From IMG/VR virus record IMGVR_UViG_3300030106_000462, positions 1 to 26,890 of that record: DNA of 26,890 nucleotides, one strand, 5' to 3'. The notes under the pieces were generated by a model. That model saw only the letters and a program-made list of their open reading frames with translations, was not told the origin of the DNA and did not search any database. Positions 4,063 to 26,125 of the stretch are shown piece by piece. This stretch comes from a virus. A program made the position numbers and the translations under genes. The first letter of the stretch is position 1. Each line of letters begins with the position of its first letter.

Positions 4063-4829
4063 TGGCAACTACATATTTAGATTTAACCAATGAAATACTT
4101 AGGGAACTAAATGAAGTTCCTTTAACATCTAGCAGTTTTGCAAGTGCTGTAGGTTTTCAACAGTTTGTTAAAGACTCTATAAACAAAGCTATCTTTGACG
4201 TAGCAAATGAAGAACCACAGCTACCGTTTTTTTCCGCAGGAGTAAGTGGAGGAACAGACCCGTTTTACGGAAACACAACAGTCGCTACAGTAGCTGGACA
4301 AAGATGGTACACTTTAAAAGATGGTAGCTCTAGTATAACTACAGACTTTGCATCTATTGATTGGGATGATTTTTACATTACAACAATTAGTGTGTCAGGT
4401 GAATCAGCTCCATTTGTTTCAGAAGGATTAAAACATATTAATCTTGAAGAATGGCGAAGATTTTTAAGAGATGCTGAAAATGCAGACGATGCTAACACTC
4501 AAGCTTATGGTGAGCCTAAATATGTATTTAAATCTCCAGACAGTAGAAAGTTTGGGTTAAGTCCAATACCAGACAAAGTTTATAATATACACTTTTATGC
4601 TTTTAATAGACCAACAGCATTAAGTGCACACGGAGATGAAATAGTTTTTCCAGAACAATACAGTAATGTAATTACAGCAAGAGTTAGATACTATGTGTGG
4701 CAATTTAAAGAAAGCCCACAACAAGCTGCCTTTGCATTAGAAGATTATAAAAAAGCATTAAAACACATGAAGTCTAATTTAATTAATCCTACCCCAAGGG
4801 CTATGGTAGATGACAGACTTTATTATTAA
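4062..4829 (+). CDS. Tail tubular protein A / head-to-tail adaptor
   Basis: 255 residues. T7 gp11-like adaptors form the ring below the portal that joins head and tail tube. The N-terminal helix (TTYLDLTNEILRELNEVPL) is characteristic of this family: short helical N-terminus with L-x-x-x-N-x-x-L-x-x-x-N/G. A DSINKAIFDVANEEPQLPF helix follows, then a beta-rich middle and a C-terminal helical part with PEQYSNVITARVRYYVWQFK and a late coiled segment ending in DDRLYY. Position (after capsid, before tubular protein B) matches. It begins on the A of the previous gene's stop and has no clear ribosome site, so coupling is likely. Confidence 0.8.
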   Translation: MATTYLDLTNEILRELNEVPLTSSSFASAVGFQQFVKDSINKAIFDVANEEPQLPFFSAGVSGGTDPFYGNTTVATVAGQRWYTLKDGSSSITTDFASIDWDDFYITTISVSGESAPFVSEGLKHINLEEWRRFLRDAENADDANTQAYGEPKYVFKSPDSRKFGLSPIPDKVYNIHFYAFNRPTALSAHGDEIVFPEQYSNVITARVRYYVWQFKESPQQAAFALEDYKKALKHMKSNLINPTPRAMVDDRLYY

Positions 4830-4832
4830 TTT

Positions 4833-6443
4833 ATGTCTCGTTCACAACCATATACAGTAGCATGTGCAGGAGGTCTAGTTACTTCATCAAATGCTATTGA
4901 TTTACTTAAAACTCCCGGTGTAGCAACTGAGTTAAAAAACTTTGAAGTTTCTACTAAGGGTGGTTACAGACGTATTAATGGCTTTACAAAGTTTGGTGGT
5001 GGTAGTGCAGTTCAACCTACAGGTGGTTCAACAAATATTTTAGGTGCAATACCTTATGCTGATGGTGTAGTTGTTTGTGCAGGTACAAGTATTTATTTTA
5101 GTCAAACTGGTACAAGTTGGTTAGAAATAAATAGAGCTAGTGTTGCTAGTAGTGGTGATAATCATACAGCTTTTACAGGTCGTAGTGTTGCTGCTAGAAC
5201 TGGACAAGGACAATGCCAGTTTGCTTTATTTGAAAGTGCAACATCAGACTATGGTAAATTAATTATTTCTGATGGAGCTAACGAACCTTTCTTTTTTGAA
5301 ATGACAGGTACTGGCGATAATATAAACACTAGAACTTTTTTTGCAGGTGAAATAACAGTAACAAGTACAAAGTCAGTTAAATATGTAACAGTACATGATA
5401 AACATTTAATAGCTGCTGGAGTTGAAGATAATTTAAATACTATATATTATAGTGGTACTTTAGACCCAACAGATTTTACTAGCACTGGTTCAGGTAATAT
5501 AGTTATTGAAGACCAAATAAAAGGTATTAAAAGTTTCCGTAACGAATTATTTATATTTTGTGAAAACTCAATATTTAAATTACAGAATATAAATAATTCT
5601 AGTACGATAGCTGTAGTTCCAGTAACTAAAAACGTAGGTTGTTTAAGTGGTTATAGTATTCAAGAAATTGCTGGTGATTTAATATTTTTAGCACCAGATG
5701 GATTAAGAACAGTAGCTGGTACAGCAAGAATTGGAGATGTGGAGTTAGGTACTGTTACAAGTTCAATACAAAATATTTTAAGTGATTTAGCAGAAAGTAT
5801 AAATCTTTATACAATAAATAGTGTAGTATTAAGAGAAAAATCACAGTATCGTTTATTTTATACAAATACTTCTGCTGCTGATAGCACTCAAAGAGGTATT
5901 ATTGGCACATTAAGACCTAATGGTTTTCAATGGTCTGAAACTAGAGGACTCGAAGTTACAGCTATTGGTTCTGGTTTTGATGATGATGGTGTAGAAAAAT
6001 ATTATCACGGTGATACTAATGGTAATGTTTATCAACACGATACTGGTGATGATTTTAACGGTACTGCTATTTTAGCAAGATACACGACACCTAATTATGA
6101 TTATGGTGATTTAGGAACTTTAAAAACTTTACACTATCTTAGAGTTTCTATGGCAACAGAAGGTATTGTAGAACCTGATGTACAAGTTAAATTTGATTAC
6201 AATAGTACTGATGTACCACAACCAACAAGTTTATTTGATTTAGGAGTTATAAATCCACCTTCATTATTTGGTGGTGCAGTATTTAATACAAATAAATTTG
6301 CCGGACAAAATAATCCAATGATAAGAGTACCGTTACAAGGTAGTGGTACAAGTAATAATTTTACAGTAACAAGTAATGATACAAAACCAAGCTACACAGT
6401 TAACGGACTTTATGTAGACTTTATACCTTCGGGTAGGAGATAA
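4833..6443 (+). CDS. Tail tubular protein B / tail nozzle-like protein
   Basis: 536 residues, mostly beta strand by composition with many G-D-G and N-G turns. The N-terminus (AGGLVTSSNAIDLLKTPGVA, then TELKNFEVSTKGGYRRINGF) has the pattern of nozzle proteins: 'GL-x-x-x-x-N-x-x-x-L-x-x-x-x-x-A-x-x-L-x-N' followed by 'R-x-G-F'. Such proteins form a beta-propeller-like nozzle at the tip of the short tail (T7 gp12, P22 gp10 roles). It follows tubular protein A with a 3-base gap and precedes the fibre. It could alternatively be called a generic stabilisation protein. Codon use shifts to T/A-ending codons compared with the capsid gene. Confidence 0.7.
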   Translation: MSRSQPYTVACAGGLVTSSNAIDLLKTPGVATELKNFEVSTKGGYRRINGFTKFGGGSAVQPTGGSTNILGAIPYADGVVVCAGTSIYFSQTGTSWLEINRASVASSGDNHTAFTGRSVAARTGQGQCQFALFESATSDYGKLIISDGANEPFFFEMTGTGDNINTRTFFAGEITVTSTKSVKYVTVHDKHLIAAGVEDNLNTIYYSGTLDPTDFTSTGSGNIVIEDQIKGIKSFRNELFIFCENSIFKLQNINNSSTIAVVPVTKNVGCLSGYSIQEIAGDLIFLAPDGLRTVAGTARIGDVELGTVTSSIQNILSDLAESINLYTINSVVLREKSQYRLFYTNTSAADSTQRGIIGTLRPNGFQWSETRGLEVTAIGSGFDDDGVEKYYHGDTNGNVYQHDTGDDFNGTAILARYTTPNYDYGDLGTLKTLHYLRVSMATEGIVEPDVQVKFDYNSTDVPQPTSLFDLGVINPPSLFGGAVFNTNKFAGQNNPMIRVPLQGSGTSNNFTVTSNDTKPSYTVNGLYVDFIPSGRR

Positions 6444-13772: not shown

Positions 13773-13793
13773 TAATCATTATTGGATATAGAC

Positions 13794-14537
13794 ATGGCAG
13801 AAAAAAAAGAAACACAAGAAAAACAACCAACTTTAGAAGAACTTCAAGCTTTTAATAGAAGTAGCTTAACTGATACAGCTAGAGATATTATGGAGTTTGC
13901 AGAAGACAATGGTACTTCTATGGACAAAGTTCTTGCTTCTATGGGAATGGCTATTGATGAAAATAAAGAAAGAATTGAAATAGATGATTCTGAGCCTAGT
14001 GAAGAAGAACTTTCAAGATTTATGAGAACTCAAAGTCAACCTAAAGCTATTCCCGGACAATCATTAACAGAAAATCCTGATAGTGCTAAACCTTGGGAAA
14101 GACCCGCATTATTTACAAATCCTAGAGAAGCTTTAGAGGATGTAACACAAAGACTTTTTAAACCTGAAAGTATTAGAGCAGTTGCACAGTCTTTACAGAA
14201 AGGAGCAAGTGTAGGAAACATTACTGAGGTAATTTTATATAATGATTATACTGAAGGTAAATATTCGGTTGATGTTATGTTAATGTTATATGAGCCTATA
14301 TTTTATTCAGTAATGAACATTGGCGAGTCTGCAAATGTAAATTATAGACTAGATGAAAATTTAAAAATAAATGATTTAGATAATAAAAATTCAGAAGAAA
14401 GAGTAGCTGAAACAATATCAACTATAAAAGATATTAGAAATTCAACAGCTCTTAAAACTCCAAATGTAGAAGCAATGCCAGAAAACTTTTCTGAGCAAAC
14501 TAAAATAGCTAAAAGCTTATTAGAAAGAGGTGCATAA
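13794..14537 (+). CDS. Conserved-looking virion-region protein of unknown function
   Basis: 247 residues from the ATG at 13794; a TTG at 13782 is also in frame but has no ribosome site. A GGAT lies a few bases before the ATG. The N-terminus is acidic and low in complexity. Residues about 80-175 contain KPWERPALFTNPREALEDVTQRLF and LYNDYTEGKYSVDVMLMLYEPIFYSVMNI. The 'KPWE-x-P-x-x-FTNPREA ... EG-x-x-x-x-DVM-x-L-x-EP' pattern is one I recall from uncharacterised virion-region proteins of marine phages. No transmembrane segment or catalytic motif is visible. It lies between two candidate ejection proteins and overlaps the next start by TAATG, so it probably belongs to the same complex. Confidence 0.7.
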   Translation: MAEKKETQEKQPTLEELQAFNRSSLTDTARDIMEFAEDNGTSMDKVLASMGMAIDENKERIEIDDSEPSEEELSRFMRTQSQPKAIPGQSLTENPDSAKPWERPALFTNPREALEDVTQRLFKPESIRAVAQSLQKGASVGNITEVILYNDYTEGKYSVDVMLMLYEPIFYSVMNIGESANVNYRLDENLKINDLDNKNSEERVAETISTIKDIRNSTALKTPNVEAMPENFSEQTKIAKSLLERGA

Positions 14538-16468
14538 TGTCAGACGATTCGTTTTTTAAAAGTCCTATAGTACAAAATATTATTAATAAAAGTGGTATTC
14601 TTGACCGTGAAGAAAGCACGACAGATTTTTTAAGAGATTTAATATTCGGTACACTTATTGATTATGGTGCAAGTTTTGTTCAAGCTTTACCGGGAGCTAA
14701 ACAAGAAGCTATTCAGGGTGTTAGAGACAATATGGAAAAAGCAATCGGTAGAGACAATAAAGCTTGGTTAGAAAGAGAGCCTGATAGAGCAAAATTTAAT
14801 CCTTTTAAAGAACAAGGTGGTTATACTGAAGATATGAAAGGAATTTCAGAATTAGGTAAAACTACAATAAATAATGAATTAATAGATGAGTTTAAAAAAT
14901 ATAGATTTAATCCACAAACATATGGTGTAACTTACGATTCAGTAGATTTTACTAAGCCGGGATTTGAAAATATTAAAGCTGCACAAGATAACTACATTGT
15001 TAAAAACTATGACCGTAAAAAAAATTATTATTTAAATTTAGCTCAAGATAAATATGTAACTTCTAAACATTTTAGTGATATAGAAAATCAAATAATAGCT
15101 AGATTTGCAGACGAACTAAAAGCAGCAAAGGATGCTCCTAAAGATGTTTTTGAATTAATACAACAGACTATTGAAAAAAATCATGGTCCAGAAGTAGCTA
15201 GTGCTGCTGTATTAGAATCTAAAGTTGCAACAAGTGAGCCAGTAGTTGAGCAACAAAAAATAAATAAAAAAGCAGATGATATAGTTTCTGGTCGTGCTTT
15301 AAATAGTCAAGAGTTATTTGATAAATATAATGTGTCGACTGGTCGTGCATCACAAGCAGTAATAGATATTAAAAAGTCTAATCAAGTTAATAAAGATTTA
15401 ATTAGTAAAATAGAAAAGAATATATATAACGATAAATTAGATATGCCTTTAACTGGTTTTTATGAGCCGGACACACAAGGATTTTTTAATTTACCTAACG
15501 GTCAGGATGTCAATACTATTCCTACAAGAACTCAAAATCCTTTTGACTCAAATAATTTAAAACAAATAGAAAATTTTGTTTTTCAAGATGGTAAATATGT
15601 TTCAACAGGAACGGATGGAGGTAGAAACTTTTTAAATACTGTAAGTAATTTAGTTGCTCTTACAGGAGATATAGGAGGACAAACAGACCCTAATGCTGTA
15701 CTAAATTCTGTTAAAGCTTTAAACAAAACTGGATATTTGCAAATTTTAAAAAATGGAAAAATGCGATTTTATATTCCTAATAAAGCAGTTTCTTATGCTA
15801 ATATCAGTAAAGAAGATGCTTTAAAACTTGAAGGACCTGAACTTATGATTAGAAGTTTAAATGGTTTAAAACAAGCAAAGAATGAAAAGCTTCCTACTTT
15901 AACTAGTTTTTATGATAAATATAGATTTGATAAATTTGTAGAACTTAATGCTAAAAGTGTTAAGGAAGGACTAAGTGACGAAGAAGAAATTCAAAGACAA
16001 AAGTTAGATTTTGAAACTGGAGAAGATAATATAATTAATAGTCTTAAATTTATTATTAAGCCAGAGACTGAATACATTGGAACTGAAGTTAGAAATCCTA
16101 CAGGTGGAGAACCTTTAATAGCTGGTAAGCTTACTCAAGAAGAAGCTCAAATATTTTTAGATAATACTGAAAAAAAATTAGATACTAAATTTCCTGATAT
16201 ACAAGAATTAGTAAATGAGCTACCTACACGAGACGAAATGTTTCCACCTGAAGCTCCAGAGCCTGAAATAGAAGATGAAGGAGGTCTGCTTGATTCAATA
16301 TCATCTTTTTTTAGAACAGAACCAGAAGTTAAAATACAAAATCAAATAGATAAACTACAAGAAGATATTCAAATTTATCAAGAAGGAAGTTCTACTAGGG
16401 ATAGGTTAGAAAAACAACTAGAAGAACTTTTAGCACAGCAAAAAAGTTTATTAAGTAAAGATGACTGA
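14537..16468 (+). CDS. Large unknown virion-region protein (643 aa)
   Basis: 643 residues, not recognised. It begins with SFFKSPIVQNIINKSGILDR, a segment with LIFGTLIDYGASFVQALPGA that may be weakly membrane-associated (about residues 30-55), and then a long alpha/beta mixed region rich in Lys, Asn and Asp. Near the C-terminus is an acidic Pro/Glu linker (about residues 565-590) followed by a coiled coil (QNQIDKLQEDIQIYQEG and KQLEELLAQQKSLL). It starts on the previous stop (TAATG, GAGG 6 bases upstream) and overlaps the next gene by 8 bases. Its size and place match T7 gp15-like core proteins, but no sequence similarity could be seen by eye; an internal virion protein is an inference. Confidence 0.6.
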   Translation: MSDDSFFKSPIVQNIINKSGILDREESTTDFLRDLIFGTLIDYGASFVQALPGAKQEAIQGVRDNMEKAIGRDNKAWLEREPDRAKFNPFKEQGGYTEDMKGISELGKTTINNELIDEFKKYRFNPQTYGVTYDSVDFTKPGFENIKAAQDNYIVKNYDRKKNYYLNLAQDKYVTSKHFSDIENQIIARFADELKAAKDAPKDVFELIQQTIEKNHGPEVASAAVLESKVATSEPVVEQQKINKKADDIVSGRALNSQELFDKYNVSTGRASQAVIDIKKSNQVNKDLISKIEKNIYNDKLDMPLTGFYEPDTQGFFNLPNGQDVNTIPTRTQNPFDSNNLKQIENFVFQDGKYVSTGTDGGRNFLNTVSNLVALTGDIGGQTDPNAVLNSVKALNKTGYLQILKNGKMRFYIPNKAVSYANISKEDALKLEGPELMIRSLNGLKQAKNEKLPTLTSFYDKYRFDKFVELNAKSVKEGLSDEEEIQRQKLDFETGEDNIINSLKFIIKPETEYIGTEVRNPTGGEPLIAGKLTQEEAQIFLDNTEKKLDTKFPDIQELVNELPTRDEMFPPEAPEPEIEDEGGLLDSISSFFRTEPEVKIQNQIDKLQEDIQIYQEGSSTRDRLEKQLEELLAQQKSLLSKDD

Positions 16469-19400
16469 AGAAGAATATAATAATTTTTTTAACGAAGCTT
16501 TTATTGAAGTAGACAAATATAGAGATGCTAAAATACCTGAAAGACCTATTAGCTCTAAGTTAGGTAAAAAATATAGCATGACTCAGCTTCAGGCTGACCC
16601 TGAGTTTAGTAAAAGAGCTAATCGTTTTTTAACTACTATTGGAGAAGATGACAATATAATAGAATATTTAAGAGATTCTGATTACAGTTTAACTTCTGCT
16701 ATGCAAAGAGCTTCTGAAATCGGAAACTGGAGTGACCAAACAAAACAAGATTATATTTATTTAAGAGATAAATATTCTAAAGCTAATCTAAAAGGTGCTG
16801 GAGAGTGGGCAACTTTTATGAAAGATTTTGCTATTGATGCAGTTGCTGACCCGTTAAATGTAGTTACTGCTTTATTTGCTATACCTTCTATGGGAACTTC
16901 TATAGCTGCAAGAACTGCTGCAGGAGAGTTAGTTAAGCAAGGACTAAAAAAATATAGTACTTCACAGTTAACTAAGGTAGGTTTAGAAGCTGCTAAAAGA
17001 CCTGCTATATACGGAGCAGCAGAGGGTGCAGGTTGGAATGGAGCACACGAATATTTTTTACAAGACCAAGATATACAACTTGATTTACAGCCAGACAATA
17101 AAAACTGGGCTAATATAGGTAAGGCTGTAGGAGTAGGTGGATTGTTTGGATTAGGTGCTGGTGGAACATTAGGAGCAGTTAACGGTTATCGTTATTTAAA
17201 TAAAATGCAAAAGTATGCTAATGAAGACGATATTCGTAAAACTATAAAAGGTAAATCAGTAGACGATATTGTAGATGAGTTTGAAGTTAATGAAGCTTTT
17301 AAAGTTAAAAGTCCTTCTAAGATTTCTAAAGCAAAAGAAATTATAGACGAAAAAGTTGTCGGTGCATTGTTTGGTAAATCAACTACTAAGTTTATTGAAA
17401 AAGCCAAATCCTCTGAAACTTTAACTAAACTAATGCAACTTTTTAGATATGACTTTGGAGAGTCTATGTTTGGTGGAGATACTGCTAGAGTTCTTACACA
17501 AAGTTATGGTGAAGCTAAAGGCAGAAGAATGGGTTTTTATTTAGCTAGATTAGATAGAAGTCTTAACAAACTTTATAGGAAAGGTTGGTCTGGAAAGATT
17601 GATGAAGTCGATAATACTGCACTGCTTACCTATATTATGAATCCAAGAGCTAAAAAGTTTATAAATGAAAAAACTGGTGAAAAACTAGACATACCTGATT
17701 ATGTAAAAGAAGCTGGTAAAGAAATAAGAGATTTAAACAAAAGAATGTTTGATGAAGGTTTAAGTGCTGGACTTTTTGAGGAGTCTCAAGAAGTAGCAAA
17801 TTACTTTCCAAGAATGTTTAGTTATACAAAAATTTTAAATGATAGAGAAGGTTTTGAAAAAATACTAGTTAAAAGTGGTCACGCTAATCCAATAAATAAA
17901 GTTCAACAAAGAAAAACTACAGAAACTGTAGAAGGTGTAGGAGTAATTGAAGGGCTTGAAGAAAATCTTGTTAAAAGTGATAAAGAACTTTTTGGTAGAG
18001 ACTTTTTAAAAGAAGCTAATGGTAATTTAAAGTTAGCTAAAGAAATAAAAGCAAGTGTTATTGTTGATAATATGCTTGATAATAAACATAGTCCTATTGA
18101 AGTAAGAATAGATGGTGGTCGAGGTGGTGGTCAGACTTGGTTACAAAGTAGAGTATTTAATAATATAAAAGATAAAGATTTAGTAAACTATATAGAAACA
18201 GATGTAGAACAAGTATTAAGAGAGTACTATACCAGTGCAGCACAAACAGTAACGAGAACAGAATTTTTTGGTAGAACAGTAGCAGATTTTAATAAAAAGT
18301 TTATAAAAAACAATGCAAATAAAACTGGTATTTATTATGAATTGTTAGATGCTGGATTTTCTGACACTGAAGTTAGGAAAGCTATAAAAAAAATTAGAAA
18401 ACTACACGAAAGAGTTACTGGTTTAGATTACGCAGGAACACAATTAGGAGCAGTTGGTCAATTTGGTTCTAATTGGGGAAGACTTATACAGCAGATGGCT
18501 CACTTAGGATTAGCTACTATTTCTAGTGTTTCAGAGCCTATCATTCTATTACAAAGAGCAGGAATATCGGCTGCTCCTCAAGCTACTAGAGATATGGCTG
18601 CTGCACTTGGTAAAAACTTTGTAAGAGAAATAGATAGGGGTTTAGGTACTTTAGTTAGAACAGGTATAAGTGGAGTTGATGCAGGTTTAGGTAAATTAGG
18701 TAAAGGACCTACAGGAATTAAATTAAGAGGTAAAGGAATAAGTAAAACTTTAGCAGAAACTAAAGTAGGTAAAAAGATTTCAGAAAAAACCGGAGCAAAA
18801 CTTAATATAAACGACTTAGATGACGAAACTTGGTTTGAAATATATGAAACTGGATTAGCTTTAGAACAAGCAGTCATGGATAGACTTGAAGGTTTGACTG
18901 GAGATGCTTTAACAAGTAAGAGTGCACAAAGAATACAAAATGGTTTTTTTAAAGTAAATTTATTAGACCAGTGGACTAGAACTGTTCAACTGGCTTCATT
19001 CACAAGTGGAAAAAGAATAATAACTAAAAACTCTGAAAAACTATTTGAACATTATAACGGCATAACAAATTTATATAAAAATAAAGTTGACTATCTAGAA
19101 GGACAATTAAGAGAATTAGGTATAGACCCTAAAAAAGCTGCAACTTGGTATGCTAATTCTTTAGATGACAATTTTCAATTTGATATAAATAAAGCAAGTA
19201 GAACTACTTTTAAAGGTAAAGACAATTCAAGTCAAGCTAATTTTTATAGAGAGTCTGTTGTGGGTGGAGCTAATAGATTTACTAAAGAAGTTATTTTAAA
19301 CCCAAGTACTGCAGAAGCTAACAGACCTCTTTGGTTTAGTTCACCTGCAGGACAATTACTTATGCAATTTGCTGGTTATCCTACTGTGTTTACAAATACT

Positions 19401-21422
19401 GTTTTGAAAAGATTCGCTAAAGATTCTGGAGTTGTAGATATTGGTAGGGGTGCTGTAAACATAGCAAAAGGAGATTTTAAAGCTGCTAGAGCTAATGCTG
19501 CTAGAAGTTTTACAAAATCACCAAGAACTATAGGAGCTGCTATGACAATGACAGCCGTTGCAGTTTTAGGTGATTATATTAGAAGCAGAGGAAAAAGTAT
19601 TGATGCATCTAATTTAACATTTGCAGAATTATTACAGGGAGAAAATTTACCAGAAGAAGTAGAAAATCAAATAAAATTATTTGTAGAAAATGTAGAAAAC
19701 AAAGAAGACCTTAAAACTATTATGGAGGATAGTGAAATTATATTTAATGCTATTAGAAGATGGGGTGGTTTTGGACCTTTTGACTATGGTGCTAGATTTG
19801 GTAAAGAAATAGAATACAATGATAATTTATTAACAAGTCTTGCTAAAGCTTTTTCAGGTCCTTTACCTCAAGATATAATAGATGAATTCAGATATGGTGC
19901 TGGTCCAATTAGTTTTGCAGCTAAAAACGCACCCGGTTTAGCTGCTTATGATTTAATATTTGGTGAAGGTACATCTAAAAATCTTAAAAAAGGAGCAAGA
20001 AAAATAGACCAAGAAGTTAAAGATTCATTATTTGGTGATGATAGACTGGGATATAAAACTGGAGGAGAAGTAGACGTGCCTCAAGCTCCAGATGAGCCAG
20101 ACGAAAGAATAGATAAACTAACTGGTCTTCCATATAATCAACAAGCGGGAACAGCTTTCCAAGATGCAGAAGAACGACTAAGTTTCGCTGAAGGAAAAGA
20201 AGTAGATAATTCTCAAGATGATGATGGAATAAAATTATTTGGTAAAGATGGTTTAATATTTGATTACACAAACCCTTTAGATTATTTAATGGTTGTTCCC
20301 GGAGCTGGAATATTAGGTATAGCAGGTAAATCTTTAAGCACTGCTGGTAAATTATCTAGATTAAGAAAAATACCTAAAACAGTATATCACGGAGGTCGGG
20401 CTTCAGTAGAAAAAGGAACTGCTAGTAGACAAGGAATTTATTCTACTCCTGATATTAAGTATGCAAAAACATTTGCTACTGAAAATAGAGGATTTACGCA
20501 AGGGGCGAAAGGACCTGCTGGAGTATATCAACTTGATTTAAGGTCGGCTAAAAATATTGAACTTTTAGATAAGCCAAGTAAAAGCTTACAAAAAATTGTT
20601 AGTGCTAAAATGAAAGAATTAAAAAATATTCCTCCCAATAAAATAACTAACTATCAGCAAAATCTTAAAGATGGATTAGAGTTTTTATTTAAAAAAGGAA
20701 AATCAGTATATGTTCGAGGTGGAGGACCTACAATGGTTTCACAAGGAACTTTAAATTTTTTAAGAAAACATGGTGTTGAAATATTATCTGACTCTAAAGC
20801 AGCAACACATAAATTAGGTAAGCAAAGCGAGTTTTTTTTATTAAAAGATTTTCCAAAGAAAAGATTATCTAAAGAACAAGTAGAAAAACTTGTAAATGCT
20901 GCAAAAAAAAGAAAACAATATAAATTAAAGGATGCAGATGAGTATTTTGGTATGGATGCAGACGAGTGGTTAATAAGAAGAAATGCCTTTTTAAGAAAAA
21001 AAAGTTTTGAAGGTGGTCCAATAGCTGATGATTTAGATGAATTTTTAAATGAGGCACTAATAGCAGCTAGTAATGAAGAAGAACGATTAGGTTTTTTTGA
21101 AGGACAAGAAGTAGATAATTCTTTAAGAAGACTAGACGGAACTAAAAAATCTCAAGTAGGTTGGAAAGGTAGAATTAAAAATAATGTTACTGGAAAAATA
21201 ATGACAGAACTTTCTGTAGGTAAACCAAATACTGAAGAAGGATTTTATCCATTAATAAATCCATATACTACAGATAAACAAATAGATTTTATACAAAACT
21301 TTGATTTTGAAAAAAACAATATATTTGAAACTAAAATTGGTAAACAAATGAATATGAATGCTAGAAAGCATTACAGAGAAAGTTTAGAAAAAAATGTAAG
21401 CCCATTTGTAAATGATAAATAA
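16461..21422 (+). CDS. Giant internal virion/ejection protein with C-terminal ART-like domain
   Basis: 1653 residues. Residues 1-120 are charged; 122-150 (DFAIDAVADPLNVVTALFAI) and 220-241 (a Gly-rich AVGVGGLFGLGAGGTLGAV run) are hydrophobic. A long helical core runs to about 1190. After a Pro/Asp/Glu-rich linker comes a 15-residue element (1237-1251), a hydrophobic segment (about 1270-1290), an ADP-ribosyltransferase-like domain (about 1300-1470), a second copy of the element (1540-1554), and a final module (about 1558-1653, with DGTKKSQVGWKGRIKNNVTG). The last module resembles one I recall from several phage internal proteins. It takes the place of T7 gp16, but no lysozyme/transglycosylase segment was seen. 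Such proteins are ejected with the DNA and span the envelope. The polyprotein-like layout (modules plus linkers) suggests the C-terminal parts may be delivered or cut separately; this is a hypothesis. Confidence 0.7.
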   Translation: MTEEEYNNFFNEAFIEVDKYRDAKIPERPISSKLGKKYSMTQLQADPEFSKRANRFLTTIGEDDNIIEYLRDSDYSLTSAMQRASEIGNWSDQTKQDYIYLRDKYSKANLKGAGEWATFMKDFAIDAVADPLNVVTALFAIPSMGTSIAARTAAGELVKQGLKKYSTSQLTKVGLEAAKRPAIYGAAEGAGWNGAHEYFLQDQDIQLDLQPDNKNWANIGKAVGVGGLFGLGAGGTLGAVNGYRYLNKMQKYANEDDIRKTIKGKSVDDIVDEFEVNEAFKVKSPSKISKAKEIIDEKVVGALFGKSTTKFIEKAKSSETLTKLMQLFRYDFGESMFGGDTARVLTQSYGEAKGRRMGFYLARLDRSLNKLYRKGWSGKIDEVDNTALLTYIMNPRAKKFINEKTGEKLDIPDYVKEAGKEIRDLNKRMFDEGLSAGLFEESQEVANYFPRMFSYTKILNDREGFEKILVKSGHANPINKVQQRKTTETVEGVGVIEGLEENLVKSDKELFGRDFLKEANGNLKLAKEIKASVIVDNMLDNKHSPIEVRIDGGRGGGQTWLQSRVFNNIKDKDLVNYIETDVEQVLREYYTSAAQTVTRTEFFGRTVADFNKKFIKNNANKTGIYYELLDAGFSDTEVRKAIKKIRKLHERVTGLDYAGTQLGAVGQFGSNWGRLIQQMAHLGLATISSVSEPIILLQRAGISAAPQATRDMAAALGKNFVREIDRGLGTLVRTGISGVDAGLGKLGKGPTGIKLRGKGISKTLAETKVGKKISEKTGAKLNINDLDDETWFEIYETGLALEQAVMDRLEGLTGDALTSKSAQRIQNGFFKVNLLDQWTRTVQLASFTSGKRIITKNSEKLFEHYNGITNLYKNKVDYLEGQLRELGIDPKKAATWYANSLDDNFQFDINKASRTTFKGKDNSSQANFYRESVVGGANRFTKEVILNPSTAEANRPLWFSSPAGQLLMQFAGYPTVFTNTVLKRFAKDSGVVDIGRGAVNIAKGDFKAARANAARSFTKSPRTIGAAMTMTAVAVLGDYIRSRGKSIDASNLTFAELLQGENLPEEVENQIKLFVENVENKEDLKTIMEDSEIIFNAIRRWGGFGPFDYGARFGKEIEYNDNLLTSLAKAFSGPLPQDIIDEFRYGAGPISFAAKNAPGLAAYDLIFGEGTSKNLKKGARKIDQEVKDSLFGDDRLGYKTGGEVDVPQAPDEPDERIDKLTGLPYNQQAGTAFQDAEERLSFAEGKEVDNSQDDDGIKLFGKDGLIFDYTNPLDYLMVVPGAGILGIAGKSLSTAGKLSRLRKIPKTVYHGGRASVEKGTASRQGIYSTPDIKYAKTFATENRGFTQGAKGPAGVYQLDLRSAKNIELLDKPSKSLQKIVSAKMKELKNIPPNKITNYQQNLKDGLEFLFKKGKSVYVRGGGPTMVSQGTLNFLRKHGVEILSDSKAATHKLGKQSEFFLLKDFPKKRLSKEQVEKLVNAAKKRKQYKLKDADEYFGMDADEWLIRRNAFLRKKSFEGGPIADDLDEFLNEALIAASNEEERLGFFEGQEVDNSLRRLDGTKKSQVGWKGRIKNNVTGKIMTELSVGKPNTEEGFYPLINPYTTDKQIDFIQNFDFEKNNIFETKIGKQMNMNARKHYRESLEKNVSPFVNDK
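20169..20213 (+). repeat. 15-residue linker element, copy 1
   Basis: Encodes EERLSFAEGKEVDNS (residues 1237-1251 of the giant protein). The DNA matches copy 2 (21078-21122) at 39 of 45 bases. Confidence 0.85.
20358..20870 (+). other. ADP-ribosyltransferase-like domain within the giant virion protein
   Basis: Residues about 1300-1470. The order of motifs matches ART domains of the H-Y-E type found in phage polyvalent proteins: beta strand with VYHGG (His1310), then a GIYSTPDIKYAKTFA segment (Tyr1327 after Gly-Ile, Ala/Phe helix), then VYQLDLRSAKNIELLD (like 'V-x-L-x-[LI]-x-N-x-x-x-[LI]-D'), and finally QSEFFLLKDF (candidate catalytic Glu1457). ARTs move ADP-ribose from NAD+ onto target proteins or nucleic acids. 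The three key residues and domain length (about 170 aa) fit; the assignment rests on reading motifs, so treat as probable, not proven. Confidence 0.55.
21078..21122 (+). repeat. 15-residue linker element, copy 2
   Basis: Encodes EERLGFFEGQEVDNS (residues 1540-1554). Together with copy 1 it brackets 864 bases that contain the ART-like domain. Confidence 0.85.
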
Positions 21423-21787
21423 TGTATAAGTATTTTAGTGAAGACGAATTAAAGTGTAGGCATACTGGTCAGTGTGATATGGACTGGGCATTTATGCAGA
21501 CCATAGAAAGAATTAGGGAACGCTGTGGTTTTCCTTTTAAAGTAAGCAGTGCCTATCGTTCCATTGAGCACCCTATAGAAGCTGCAAAGGATAATCCGGG
21601 TGCTCATACAACAGGCAAAGCTATGGATATATTGGTTAGTGGCGAACAAGCTATGACTCTTATAAAGATAGCTATCGAAGAGGGCATTAACAGGATTGGA
21701 GTCGCACAAAAAGGAGACCGTGCTTCAAGATTTATTCATTTAGATATGGATAACTCTAGAGCTACTCCTAGAGTTTGGAGCTACTAA
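21422..21787 (+). CDS. Peptidase M15-type endolysin (peptidoglycan peptidase)
   Basis: 121 residues. M15 enzymes are zinc peptidases that cut the peptide stems of peptidoglycan. The motifs are present: SSAYRS at 42-47, then GAHTTGKAMDI with His62 and Asp69 (the H-x6-D zinc pair), and FIHLDM with His106 as third ligand and Asp108 nearby. The N-terminus (YFSEDELKCRHTGQCDMD) matches the usual start of M15_3 proteins, where 'F-x-x-x-E-x-x-C' precedes the first helix. The length fits a single-domain enzyme. It has no signal peptide, so it needs the neighbouring holin for release. It starts on the A of the giant gene's stop (TAATG) without a clear ribosome site. Lysis is the likely role. Confidence 0.87.
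   Translation: MYKYFSEDELKCRHTGQCDMDWAFMQTIERIRERCGFPFKVSSAYRSIEHPIEAAKDNPGAHTTGKAMDILVSGEQAMTLIKIAIEEGINRIGVAQKGDRASRFIHLDMDNSRATPRVWSY
21777..21780 (+). promoter_or_regulatory. Shine-Dalgarno GGAG that fixes a TTG start
   Basis: GGAG ends 7 bases before the TTG at 21788, directly after the endolysin stop. It is the main reason to accept the TTG as the start of the next gene rather than the internal ATG about 24 codons later. Confidence 0.65.
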
Positions 21788-22883: not shown

Positions 22884-23113
22884 TCCGTATTTTGAACACG
22901 GGCATTTAAACAAGATTCAATATAACTATGTATTTCATCAAGTTTAACTGTAGCTTCTCTTATGATAACCCGAAGATTTTCATAGTCTTGTCGGGATAGA
23001 TATTTTTTAAGTTTCGCTATATCAACTTTAGTTCTTTCAGTGACAAGGTTTCCACTTTTGTCATACAGTAATCTATAAGCTAAAAGTTGTGCTTCATTTC
23101 GTTTCGTTTTCAT
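22880..23113 (-). CDS. Small helical protein downstream of nrdB, unknown function
   Basis: 77 residues from the ATG at 23113, chosen because AGGA lies about 8 bases upstream; a TTG 15 bases earlier has no ribosome site. It is basic and helical, with KRNEAQLLAYRLLYDKSGNL, TKVDIAKLKKYLSRQDYENL and a Glu/Ile-rich helix. No metal or catalytic motif is visible. It overlaps the end of nrdB by 20 bases and is the last gene of the minus-strand operon. A role in nucleotide metabolism or its control is possible from context only. Confidence 0.7.
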   Translation of the reverse strand: MKTKRNEAQLLAYRLLYDKSGNLVTERTKVDIAKLKKYLSRQDYENLRVIIREATVKLDEIHSYIESCLNARVQNTD

Positions 23114-24086
23114 TGTTAAATCCTGCAAAGGTTAATTGTCCGTAATCACCTCTGAGTCCAGCTTTCTGATATGAAGTAGCTCTACCTTCAAAAAAGTTTT
23201 GATGTTCAACTCCCAACACATCGTCTAACCACATCAGAGGATTATCTTTCTGATTAAAGTTAGGTTTAAGTCCTAACTGTAATAATCTTCTATCGGCAAT
23301 GTATTTGTTATACGCATACATTTCCTCTTTGGTTAGCCCTTCTATATCTCCCATCTCAAATACTAAGTCAAGAAACTTTTCTTCAAGTTTTACCATCTCT
23401 CTACATATCTGATAAATTTCTTTTTTAAAGTCGTCTGTCCAGATGTCTAGATTTTCTTTGATAAATTCTCTAAATAATTTAGTCATAGCTTCTACATGTA
23501 AGCTTTCATCTTTGATAGAGTATGCCACAATCTGACACATGCCTTTCATCTTACCAAATCTTTGAAAGTTCATGAGTATAGCGAAGCTACTGAATAGCTG
23601 TAAGCCTTCCGTAAAGGCTGAATAAACGGCTAAAGCTTTGGCGATAGTCTTCTTATCAGACTTAATAGTTTTAAGGTCTGTAATGTACGCATGTTTGTCA
23701 GACATTTCTTCGTATTCAGCAAAAGCTTTGTATTCTATTTCAGGCATTCCAACAGTATCTAATAGTAAACTGTAGGCATGTTGATGGATTGCTTCCATGT
23801 TGCCAAAGGATAGCATCATCATTCTAGCTTCTGGAAGTTTGAAAAGTTGCATATACTTTTCTACATAACCTGAAGCAACATCTACATCTGACTGAGTAAA
23901 CAATCTGAATATCTGAACTAAAAGATTCTTTTCTGAATCAGTTAATCTTTCATTCCAATCTTTTACATCAGTATGTAGTGGTACTGACATAGGATGCCAA
24001 TGCATTCTGTTTTGTAAATCGTAATACTCAAACATCCAACTATAGTCAAATGGTTTGTAGTAATCTCTAGTTTTTAATAAGCTCAT
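23094..24086 (-). CDS. nrdB: Ribonucleoside-diphosphate reductase, small (beta) subunit, class Ia
   Basis: 330 residues. It holds the di-iron tyrosyl radical cofactor needed by the large subunit to make deoxyribonucleotides. Metal ligands read in order: Asp67 (FTQSDVDVA), Glu98 and His101 (NMEAIHQHAY), Glu160 (FTEGLQLF), Glu194 and His197 (KDESLHVEAM). Tyr105 sits four residues after the first His, in the place of the radical tyrosine of E. coli (Tyr122), so a Tyr-radical enzyme is expected. The start is set at 24086 because GGAGG (24093-24097) lies 6 bases before it; a longer reading to 24119 has no support. It overlaps the zinc-ribbon gene by 20 bases and is in the same operon as the large subunit. 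Confidence 0.95.
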   Translation of the reverse strand: MSLLKTRDYYKPFDYSWMFEYYDLQNRMHWHPMSVPLHTDVKDWNERLTDSEKNLLVQIFRLFTQSDVDVASGYVEKYMQLFKLPEARMMMLSFGNMEAIHQHAYSLLLDTVGMPEIEYKAFAEYEEMSDKHAYITDLKTIKSDKKTIAKALAVYSAFTEGLQLFSSFAILMNFQRFGKMKGMCQIVAYSIKDESLHVEAMTKLFREFIKENLDIWTDDFKKEIYQICREMVKLEEKFLDLVFEMGDIEGLTKEEMYAYNKYIADRRLLQLGLKPNFNQKDNPLMWLDDVLGVEHQNFFEGRATSYQKAGLRGDYGQLTFAGFNNENETK

Positions 24087-24234
24087 TATTTTCCTCCTTT
24101 GGTAAATAAACCATAACAAGTGTTTTACAATTAGGGCAACTTAAATTAGTTTTAATAATGTAATCTTCGTTTTCTTCTTCAATATCGTGGTCTCCACCCC
24201 AAATTAATTTTGTATTACAGTGCCAACATTTCAT
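24067..24234 (-). CDS. Four-cysteine zinc-ribbon protein between the reductase subunits
   Basis: 55 residues. Two CxxC knuckles (Cys3/Cys6 and Cys33/Cys36) are separated by an acidic loop (GGDHDIEEENED), which fits a zinc ribbon. GAGGG at 24240-24244 lies 5 bases before the ATG at 24234, within the end of nrdA; a longer reading from upstream is less likely. The gene sits one base after nrdA and overlaps the start of nrdB by 20 bases. Such a tight place between the two reductase subunits suggests a related role (redox partner, assembly factor or regulator), but no such role is known to me. It may instead be a nucleic-acid binding protein. Confidence 0.8.
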   Translation of the reverse strand: MKCWHCNTKLIWGGDHDIEEENEDYIIKTNLSCPNCKTLVMVYLPKEENNELIKN

Positions 24235-24235
24235 A

Positions 24236-26125
24236 TTATCCCTCACAAGCAATACATTCCACATCATCTAATTTAATTCGTGGAACTTTAATGTTAACAT
24301 TCTCTGCAGCTTTAGCAGCATCAGACCTAAAATAATAAAGTGATTTTAATTTATTAGCACCATACCAATGAACATCACTAACATACTGTAAGTATTCATT
24401 ATGCTGTTCTTGATTCTGACTCGAATCAGGTAAGATAAAAAATAAATTAACACTTTGACTTTGACATATAAACTCTTGTCGTTTATACGCATGTTCGACA
24501 ACCCAGATTTGATTTATCTCATCTGCGGTTTTAAATACTTCTTTTTCTTCTTTTGTAAATAACTTTAACTCTTGTATTGACCCACGATTATCACTAATAT
24601 CTTGCCAAACTTTCTTACGCTTTTTAGGGTCGGTTACTTTTTTGTTGATGAGTTTTTCAAGGTTTTTGTTTTTGACTTTATAGCTTCCAGATAGCGTTTT
24701 ATGAGTGAAGACGTTAGCCCTGATGGGTTCGATGGATGGAGAAGTTCCCCCACAAATAATACTGGAACTAGCATTAGGTGCAACAGCAAGGAGATGGCAA
24801 TTCCTAAGACCAGAATTAGAAATATCAGGAGCTTCCCCCCGTAATACAGCAAGTCTTCGAGATGCACTAACAGCAGCTCCTTTGATGAACTTAAATAATT
24901 TATAGTTGATTCCAGTCGAGAAGATTCCCTCAAAGGAAATGTTCTGATTTTGTAAATAAGAATGAAAACCCATAGCACCAAGACCGATAGACCTTTCACG
25001 ATAGGCTGAATAAGCAGCTTTAGTAAAGCCTTCTTTACCTTCTTTAATATGTTTTTTAAATCTTTCAAAATTTGCATTATATCCTCCAAGTGAATTTAAA
25101 TCGACTGCATTTTCAATAAAGTGTTCTAGTACATTGTCAAGCATAGTGACTAAATCATCAATAAATTTTTCTTCTTTAGACCATTCATCAAAGTGTTCAA
25201 GGTTGACACTTGACAAACAACAGACTGCAGTTCTTTCTTCATTAGTAGGTAAAGTTATTTCTGAACATAAGTTGCTTTGTTTTACCTCTAAACCTAAATC
25301 TTTTTGTCCTTGTGGTAGAGCATCATTACAATTATCTATATTAACAATATAAGGCTCTCCAGTTTCTGCTCTAGCATCTAATAGTTTAGACCAGAGTTCT
25401 CTAGCTTTTATAATCTTAACAGCTTCATTTGTTTTCGGGTCAATCAATCGCCAATCGTCATCTTCTTCTACAGCTTTTAAAAATGCATTAGTTATGTTAA
25501 CTCCATTGTGTAAGTTCAAGCATTTTCTATTTACATCACCACCGGATTCTTTTCTCATTACCATGAACTCTTCAATCTCTGGATGTGATATATCCATGTA
25601 AGCAGCATAACTACCTCGTCTAGTCACTCCTTGATTAAAAGCTAACATCTGAGAGTCTACTACTTTCATAAATGGTATTGAGCCAGTAGACTTACTACCA
25701 TTACTTGTAGGTATACCATCACTTCTAATGTCTCCCCAATAACCTCCAATACCTCCACCAGAACTAGCTAACCAAATGTTTTCATCATAGTGGCTAGACA
25801 AACCTTCACGATTATCAGGAACATAATTAAGAAAACAACTGATAGGTAAACCTCTAGTTGTACCCCCATTAGAAAGAATAGGAGTAGAAAACATAAACCA
25901 AAGATTAGAAACATAATTATAAATTCTTTGAGCCATGTCAAAGTCAGTTTCTTCTTTAAATGTAGAAACAAATACTGAAGCTCTAGCAAAAGCTTCTTGT
26001 GGCGAAGTTTCGTTCTGCCATAAGTATCTATCTTGAAGAGTATCTAAACTAAACTTGTCTAGTTTTTTATCTCTGTCATAGTTTATAATTATTCCTAAAT
26101 AAGGATGTTCACCCTTTTTTTCCAT
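24236..26125 (-). CDS. nrdA: Ribonucleoside-diphosphate reductase, large (alpha) subunit, class Ia
   Basis: 629 residues, shorter than the usual E. coli-type protein (about 760) because the N-terminal ATP-cone is missing; it begins within the core helical region. It reduces ribonucleoside diphosphates. Key residues: Cys97 (LPISCFLN, partner Cys), Asn285/Cys287/Glu289 (NLCSEI, active site), Cys302 (AVCCLSSVNL, partner Cys), Tyr597-Tyr598 (SLYYF, radical path), and the C-terminal redox pair Cys624/Cys627 (ECIACEG). All catalytic parts are therefore present. GGAGG (26132-26136) lies 6 bases before the ATG. Lacking the cone, it should not be inhibited by dATP through that site, as in several phage enzymes. 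It shares the operon with nrdB, DUF3310 and an endonuclease. Confidence 0.95.
   Translation of the reverse strand: MEKKGEHPYLGIIINYDRDKKLDKFSLDTLQDRYLWQNETSPQEAFARASVFVSTFKEETDFDMAQRIYNYVSNLWFMFSTPILSNGGTTRGLPISCFLNYVPDNREGLSSHYDENIWLASSGGGIGGYWGDIRSDGIPTSNGSKSTGSIPFMKVVDSQMLAFNQGVTRRGSYAAYMDISHPEIEEFMVMRKESGGDVNRKCLNLHNGVNITNAFLKAVEEDDDWRLIDPKTNEAVKIIKARELWSKLLDARAETGEPYIVNIDNCNDALPQGQKDLGLEVKQSNLCSEITLPTNEERTAVCCLSSVNLEHFDEWSKEEKFIDDLVTMLDNVLEHFIENAVDLNSLGGYNANFERFKKHIKEGKEGFTKAAYSAYRERSIGLGAMGFHSYLQNQNISFEGIFSTGINYKLFKFIKGAAVSASRRLAVLRGEAPDISNSGLRNCHLLAVAPNASSSIICGGTSPSIEPIRANVFTHKTLSGSYKVKNKNLEKLINKKVTDPKKRKKVWQDISDNRGSIQELKLFTKEEKEVFKTADEINQIWVVEHAYKRQEFICQSQSVNLFFILPDSSQNQEQHNEYLQYVSDVHWYGANKLKSLYYFRSDAAKAAENVNIKVPRIKLDDVECIACEG

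Follow-up and report, generated by a model that had tools for sequence, protein, structure and literature searches.

Phage polyvalent proteins that carry ADP-ribosyltransferase (ART) domains and are injected together with the DNA, podoviruses included, were proposed in 2017 (Iyer et al., PMC5512222), and ARTs are the commonest protein-modifying domain of such proteins (PMC5512222). The prototype of the ART-polyvalent group is the vRNAP of podovirus RPP1 (Roseovarius Plymouth podovirus 1), with H-Y-D motifs; T4 Alt, whose family belongs to the R-S-E ART clade, was used as the model of action (PMC5512222). This work was extended by a 2022 survey (PMC9503650). Here, we analyzed a stretch of 26,890 nt (the window) from a marine, podovirus-like virus of bacteria, in which an ART-like domain is fused to a very large protein. 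A preliminary description had offered a T4 Alt-like concept built into a podovirus ejection protein, for which the polyvalent proteins, including the RPP1 vRNAP, provide precedent (PMC5512222). The idea is sound, but an ART in an injected protein is already known as a concept, and the new details are this member and its swapping: a divergent domain, an in-frame, repeat-bounded cassette with empty sites in relatives, and a linker that marks a variable payload slot.

The carrier protein and its gene neighbourhood

The ART-like domain lies within a 1653-aa protein (16461..21422, + strand), hereafter the carrier, which is encoded by the third gene, also the largest, in a run of three overlapping or adjacent genes 3' of the tail genes. 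The product of the first gene (13782..14537, +) gave a weak match to T7 gp14 (E = 0.071). The second encodes a 643-aa protein (14537..16468, +) and overlaps the start of the carrier gene; no convincing family match was found for this product, which is 31-47% identical to its counterparts in relatives. The middle part of the carrier matches PHROG 7348 (E = 4e-41), and the protein also matches two PHROGs annotated as virion structural proteins and, at a low level, structural proteins of KPP25-type Pseudomonas phages (matches 750-984). Searches with PADLOC and NCBIfam found nothing. From its gene position and these distant structural homologues, the carrier is probably an ejection or internal virion protein, and the two preceding genes would complete the presumed ejection set.

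Directly downstream is a separate gene for an M15-type peptidase, a probable endolysin (21422..21787, +), 97.5% identical in the relative G002 and followed by a holin gene. This proximity to lysis genes, a PHROG match of the carrier that is labelled endolysin, and lysozyme-like C-terminal modules in some relatives would all suit a carrier that is not injected, with C-terminal domains that act in the virion or at lysis (in wall degradation or maturation) and an ART that acts late. We consider this unlikely, since the giant length of the carrier and its position after the tail genes suit ejection proteins, the ART, DUF6973-like and methyltransferase modules found at this site have no obvious use in lysis, and the polyvalent proteins offer a precedent for injection (PMC5512222). 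The preliminary claim of an ART domain inside a giant ejection protein stands insofar as the His/Tyr half of such a domain is present in a large, probably ejected virion protein.

A divergent ART-like domain

The domain spans residues 1300-1470 (20358..20870, +). The ORF, the coordinates, the four motifs and their order are exactly as first described: YHGG (His1310, codon 20388-20390), GIYSTP...YAKTFA (Tyr1327, 20439-20441), VYQLDL, and QSEFFLLKD (Glu1457, 20829-20831, a tentative assignment) all fall inside the carrier. Both the strand-1 His (x-Y/W-H-G) and the strand-2 Tyr (G-x-Y) are present, with ART spacing. The domain is directly preceded by a stretch (20235..20357, +) that contains a hydrophobic, glycine-rich core (NPLDYLMVVPGAGILGIAG...) and which, from reading of the sequence only, is a possible pre-domain or membrane-passage segment.

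When residues 1291-1490 were excised and searched against Pfam, the best match was DUF3990 (PF13151; E = 3.7e-4), at 20.6 bits against a curated cut-off of 32.2 bits; the E value depends on the cut, being 0.009 for residues 1296-1473 and 0.05 for the whole protein. ART-PolyVal (PF18760) did not match the window in the Pfam search, up to E = 10. Bacterial relatives were gathered by motif and by family search. Three of these (L165, L184 and L212, one from Candidatus Ryanbacteria) match PF18760 at E of about 1e-6 and PARP more weakly, two of them also matching DUF3990, and a further protein, L221, likewise matches PF18760. The window aligns with the three bacterial proteins along the full length of the domain, and H1310, Y1327 and their neighbouring residues are invariant.

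Profiles that never included the window were then used for scoring. With a first profile built from ART-PolyVal, DUF3990 and proteins of the L165/L184/L212 type, the window domain scored 22.0 bits, compared with 13.8 bits for the best of 5000 shuffles. Because this profile had absorbed marine viral members, the scoring was repeated with a bacterial-only profile (15-16.5 bits versus 8.7-11.7 for shuffles) and a PolyVal-only profile (about 15 bits versus 12-14), and the window ranked 1/5001 with both from the third round onward. First-round profiles (seed or one iteration) missed the window, and recognition required two or more iterations, indicating that its relation to ARTs is remote. The best PDB match of an aligned-family profile was PARP3, at its His/Tyr NAD site (E = 0.034), and hhalign against four bacterial ARTs gave E = 0.0023 but a probability of 12.5%, over the H/Y part only. 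The strict motif GIYST.D..YA..FA did not occur in any shuffle of the window. By these sequence comparisons the His/Tyr half is statistically ART-like, above chance, and the domain is quite likely a divergent ART.

The other half behaves differently from the half around H and Y. The preliminary H-Y-E assignment holds for the latter, through the profiles and DUF3990, and does not carry over to Glu1457: scored alone, the C-terminal half was not above shuffles (rank 1484 of 3927 sequences scored), and the ART profile alignments end before this residue. In the MAFFT alignment E1457 faces the E of TEFVALKPNQIKSA (L221), while relative to HDTYLIFD of L165-type proteins it falls on the D or beside it, depending on the alignment. 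A catalytic role for Glu1457 is therefore a tentative assignment, reasonable but unproven. Structure prediction, proposed earlier as a check, gave a mixed outcome. AlphaFold2 (AF2) with six sequences yielded a poor model (pLDDT 51.8) whose elements, b-b-a-b-a-a-a-b-b, follow the ART order; with a single sequence the pLDDT was 37. Foldseek found no ART when the low-confidence model was compared with PDB and BFVD. Neither the element order nor the Foldseek result weighs much at such model confidence.

The other proposed check, a look for the domain in homologues, came back empty, no close homologue turning up among viral contigs, phages or plasmids. The window domain, searched by itself against PDB sequences, gave no relevant match, the strict motif was absent from viral contigs and 84,980 genomes, and searches of 385 and 369 genomes from two bacterial classes returned almost nothing. 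A looser motif scan of viral contigs gave four hits, which were judged to be chance. The DUF3990 matches collected were mostly small stand-alone bacterial proteins.

A domain with the ART fold could be inactive or serve another role, such as binding or as a structural spacer, the cassette that encodes it being a decayed or repurposed effector. The lack of statistical support for the Glu1457 half, and of homologues that would show conservation, fits such a history; the H, the Y and the strand motifs around them are well preserved, however, and the ORF is uninterrupted, its GC and GC3 resembling the rest of the carrier gene, so that we rate this as improbable. Less probable still is an unrelated α/β domain with a chance or very weak resemblance at YHGG and GIYST. 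Low Pfam scores, the silence of PF18760 and the Foldseek search without an ART point that way, whereas three profiles placed the window first of 5001 against shuffles, the shuffles are devoid of the strict motif, and the order of secondary-structure elements fits. A divergent ART remains the preferred reading.

An in-frame cassette at a repeated linker

The ART-like domain is carried by an inserted cassette of 909 nt, or 303 codons (20214..21122, +, including the right repeat copy), that is absent in both close relatives. The cassette is in frame and is bounded by a 50-nt direct repeat of the linker. The left copy (20164..20213, +) differs by 1 nt from the lone copy at the empty site of the relative L001, and the right copy (21073..21122, +), 909 nt away, is 86% identical. 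The L001 carrier is 73% identical to that of the window over residues 1-1258 and 81% identical over the C-terminal module, without the intervening piece. In G002 (the contig of L057) the carrier is 76% identical and the cassette site is empty too. It is very improbable that the cassette is an artefact of metagenome assembly, a chimera formed at the linker repeat: it is known from a single contig, with junctions inside the repeat and no second copy found, but its 909 nt keep the frame, its right repeat has diverged by 14%, which is not expected of a mis-joined copy, and its GC and GC3 match the carrier.

The C-terminal module with the pattern DGTKKS...MTELS...SPFVND (21123..21419, +) is kept in the empty-site relatives. 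Beyond this shared module, the G002 carrier has a HEFVH domain (L284, about 4275-4997, −), which is metallopeptidase-like by motif; Pfam confirmed no zincin for it. The L001 carrier has another domain at this end, different from that of G002, so that the three near relatives bear three different additions on the carrier. Exchange by recombination at the repeated linker would be the simplest explanation of these differences. A transposon target-site duplication is not favoured, as the left repeat matches the empty site while the right copy has diverged by 14%, and the inequality of the two copies makes transposition the less likely route.

The ribonucleotide reductase (RNR) genes (window 23094-26125) are 97-99% identical in the same relatives, whose carriers reach only 73-76%; their subunits are 99% identical to those of the window in L001 and 97-98% in G002. 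The gap in identity suggests unequal rates or recent exchange.

The conserved linker itself (residues 1203-1251, 20067..20213, +; EVDVPQAPDEPDERIDKLTGLPYNQQAG...EERLSFAEGKEVDNS) is followed by variable modules in many marine phages. A scan with a degenerate DNA pattern for PDERIDK.TG.PY identified at least 119 viral stretches. These contigs were picked by the linker itself, and the counts below describe what follows the linker, not how common it is. The C-terminal pieces range from a few residues to >1000 aa. Among the matches listed for 102 distinct linker proteins, a DUF6973-like module occurs in 15, an LRLDIPAY module in 10, the C-terminal module of the window in nine, a second ART-like type in seven and a methyltransferase-like module in two. 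Pfam searches of the C-termini also returned lysozyme, LysM, ParB_N and others, and in further contigs the ORF next downstream of the linker ORF is ART-like. Matches of the second ART-like type are themselves weak, with PF18760 at E = 8e-4 to 0.05 in L038, L046, L065 and L117; PF18760 gave no match for L007, L022 and L005. The C-terminal module of the window recurs in other marine phages at E of about 1e-38 to 1e-45. The window carrier has one effector-like domain and one C-terminal module, whereas several modules occur together in relatives that share the linker.

Individual modules could be followed by pattern. DG[TS].KS...MTE.S...SPF..D is present in L009, L011, L012, L034, L035, L074, L083 and L120. 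The module LRLDIPAY...QVGYNPxRHSYFYDR...IQVGPLVL follows the linker in L011, L012, L013, L020, L021, L031, L048, L088, L113 and L119, and the methyltransferase-like module in L066 and L089, which are probably the two Pfam Methyltransf_23 matches.

Proposed role and comparison with known systems

We propose a model in which the conserved part of the carrier (about residues 1-1250) would serve virion assembly and DNA entry, and the repeated, flexible linker would lead into a slot where effector modules can be exchanged. Its occupant in this phage would be a divergent ADP-ribosyltransferase domain of the H-Y-[E] type (about residues 1300-1470), on a cassette acquired in frame, probably when copies of the linker recombined. 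The carrier would be packaged in the virion and enter the cell with the DNA; right at the onset of infection, its ART would ADP-ribosylate a host target with NAD+ as the donor. The model as a whole, an ejected carrier with a swappable slot and a divergent ART that acts early on the host, is in our view reasonably probable, and ART activity together with delivery is predicted with moderate confidence.

A bolder extension, possible though the balance is against it, is that the linker marks a payload slot, at the end of an ejected protein, common to marine podovirus-like phages. Host-acting enzymes (several kinds of ART, the DUF6973-like module, a methyltransferase and a possible protease) would be shuffled into it by linker recombination at a higher rate than the remaining genome evolves, as a phage counterpart of polymorphic-toxin C-termini, and the ART of the window would represent a novel H-Y-E subtype acting on a new target. 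If the model is right, closely related marine phages with differing payloads on the same protein constitute a natural experiment in which the effects of early-injected effectors become testable, and by way of the linker marine viruses could be mined for many further payloads.

Polyvalent ART proteins (PF18760) are the closest known parallel. Like the carrier, they are large multi-domain phage proteins proposed to accompany the DNA into the cell; as in the window, strands 1 and 2 of the ART carry H and Y, respectively, and other effector domains occupy the same place in neighbouring phages. Unlike the ART-PolyVal clade, the window is not detected by PF18760, and its third residue would be Glu in place of the reported Asp. 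The carrier also has no recognised RNAP or MPTase domain, and its ART-like domain lies inside an insertion flanked by linker repeats. DUF3990, the best family match, shares the YHG..., G-Y-T and A..(F/W)A spacing with the window, whereas the window falls below the family cut-off and its C-terminal half differs. The gene arrangement resembles that of the T7 gp14/15/16-type ejection proteins, with three consecutive genes after the tail genes and a very large last one, but there is no significant sequence match to these proteins, the only similarity being that of the first gene to gp14 (E = 0.071). With T4 Alt, the proposed window ART shares the concept of an ART injected with the phage DNA; Alt, ModA and ModB, however, are separate proteins with R-S-E motifs (PMC5512222), whereas the motifs of the window are H-Y-(E), fused to a probable ejection protein.
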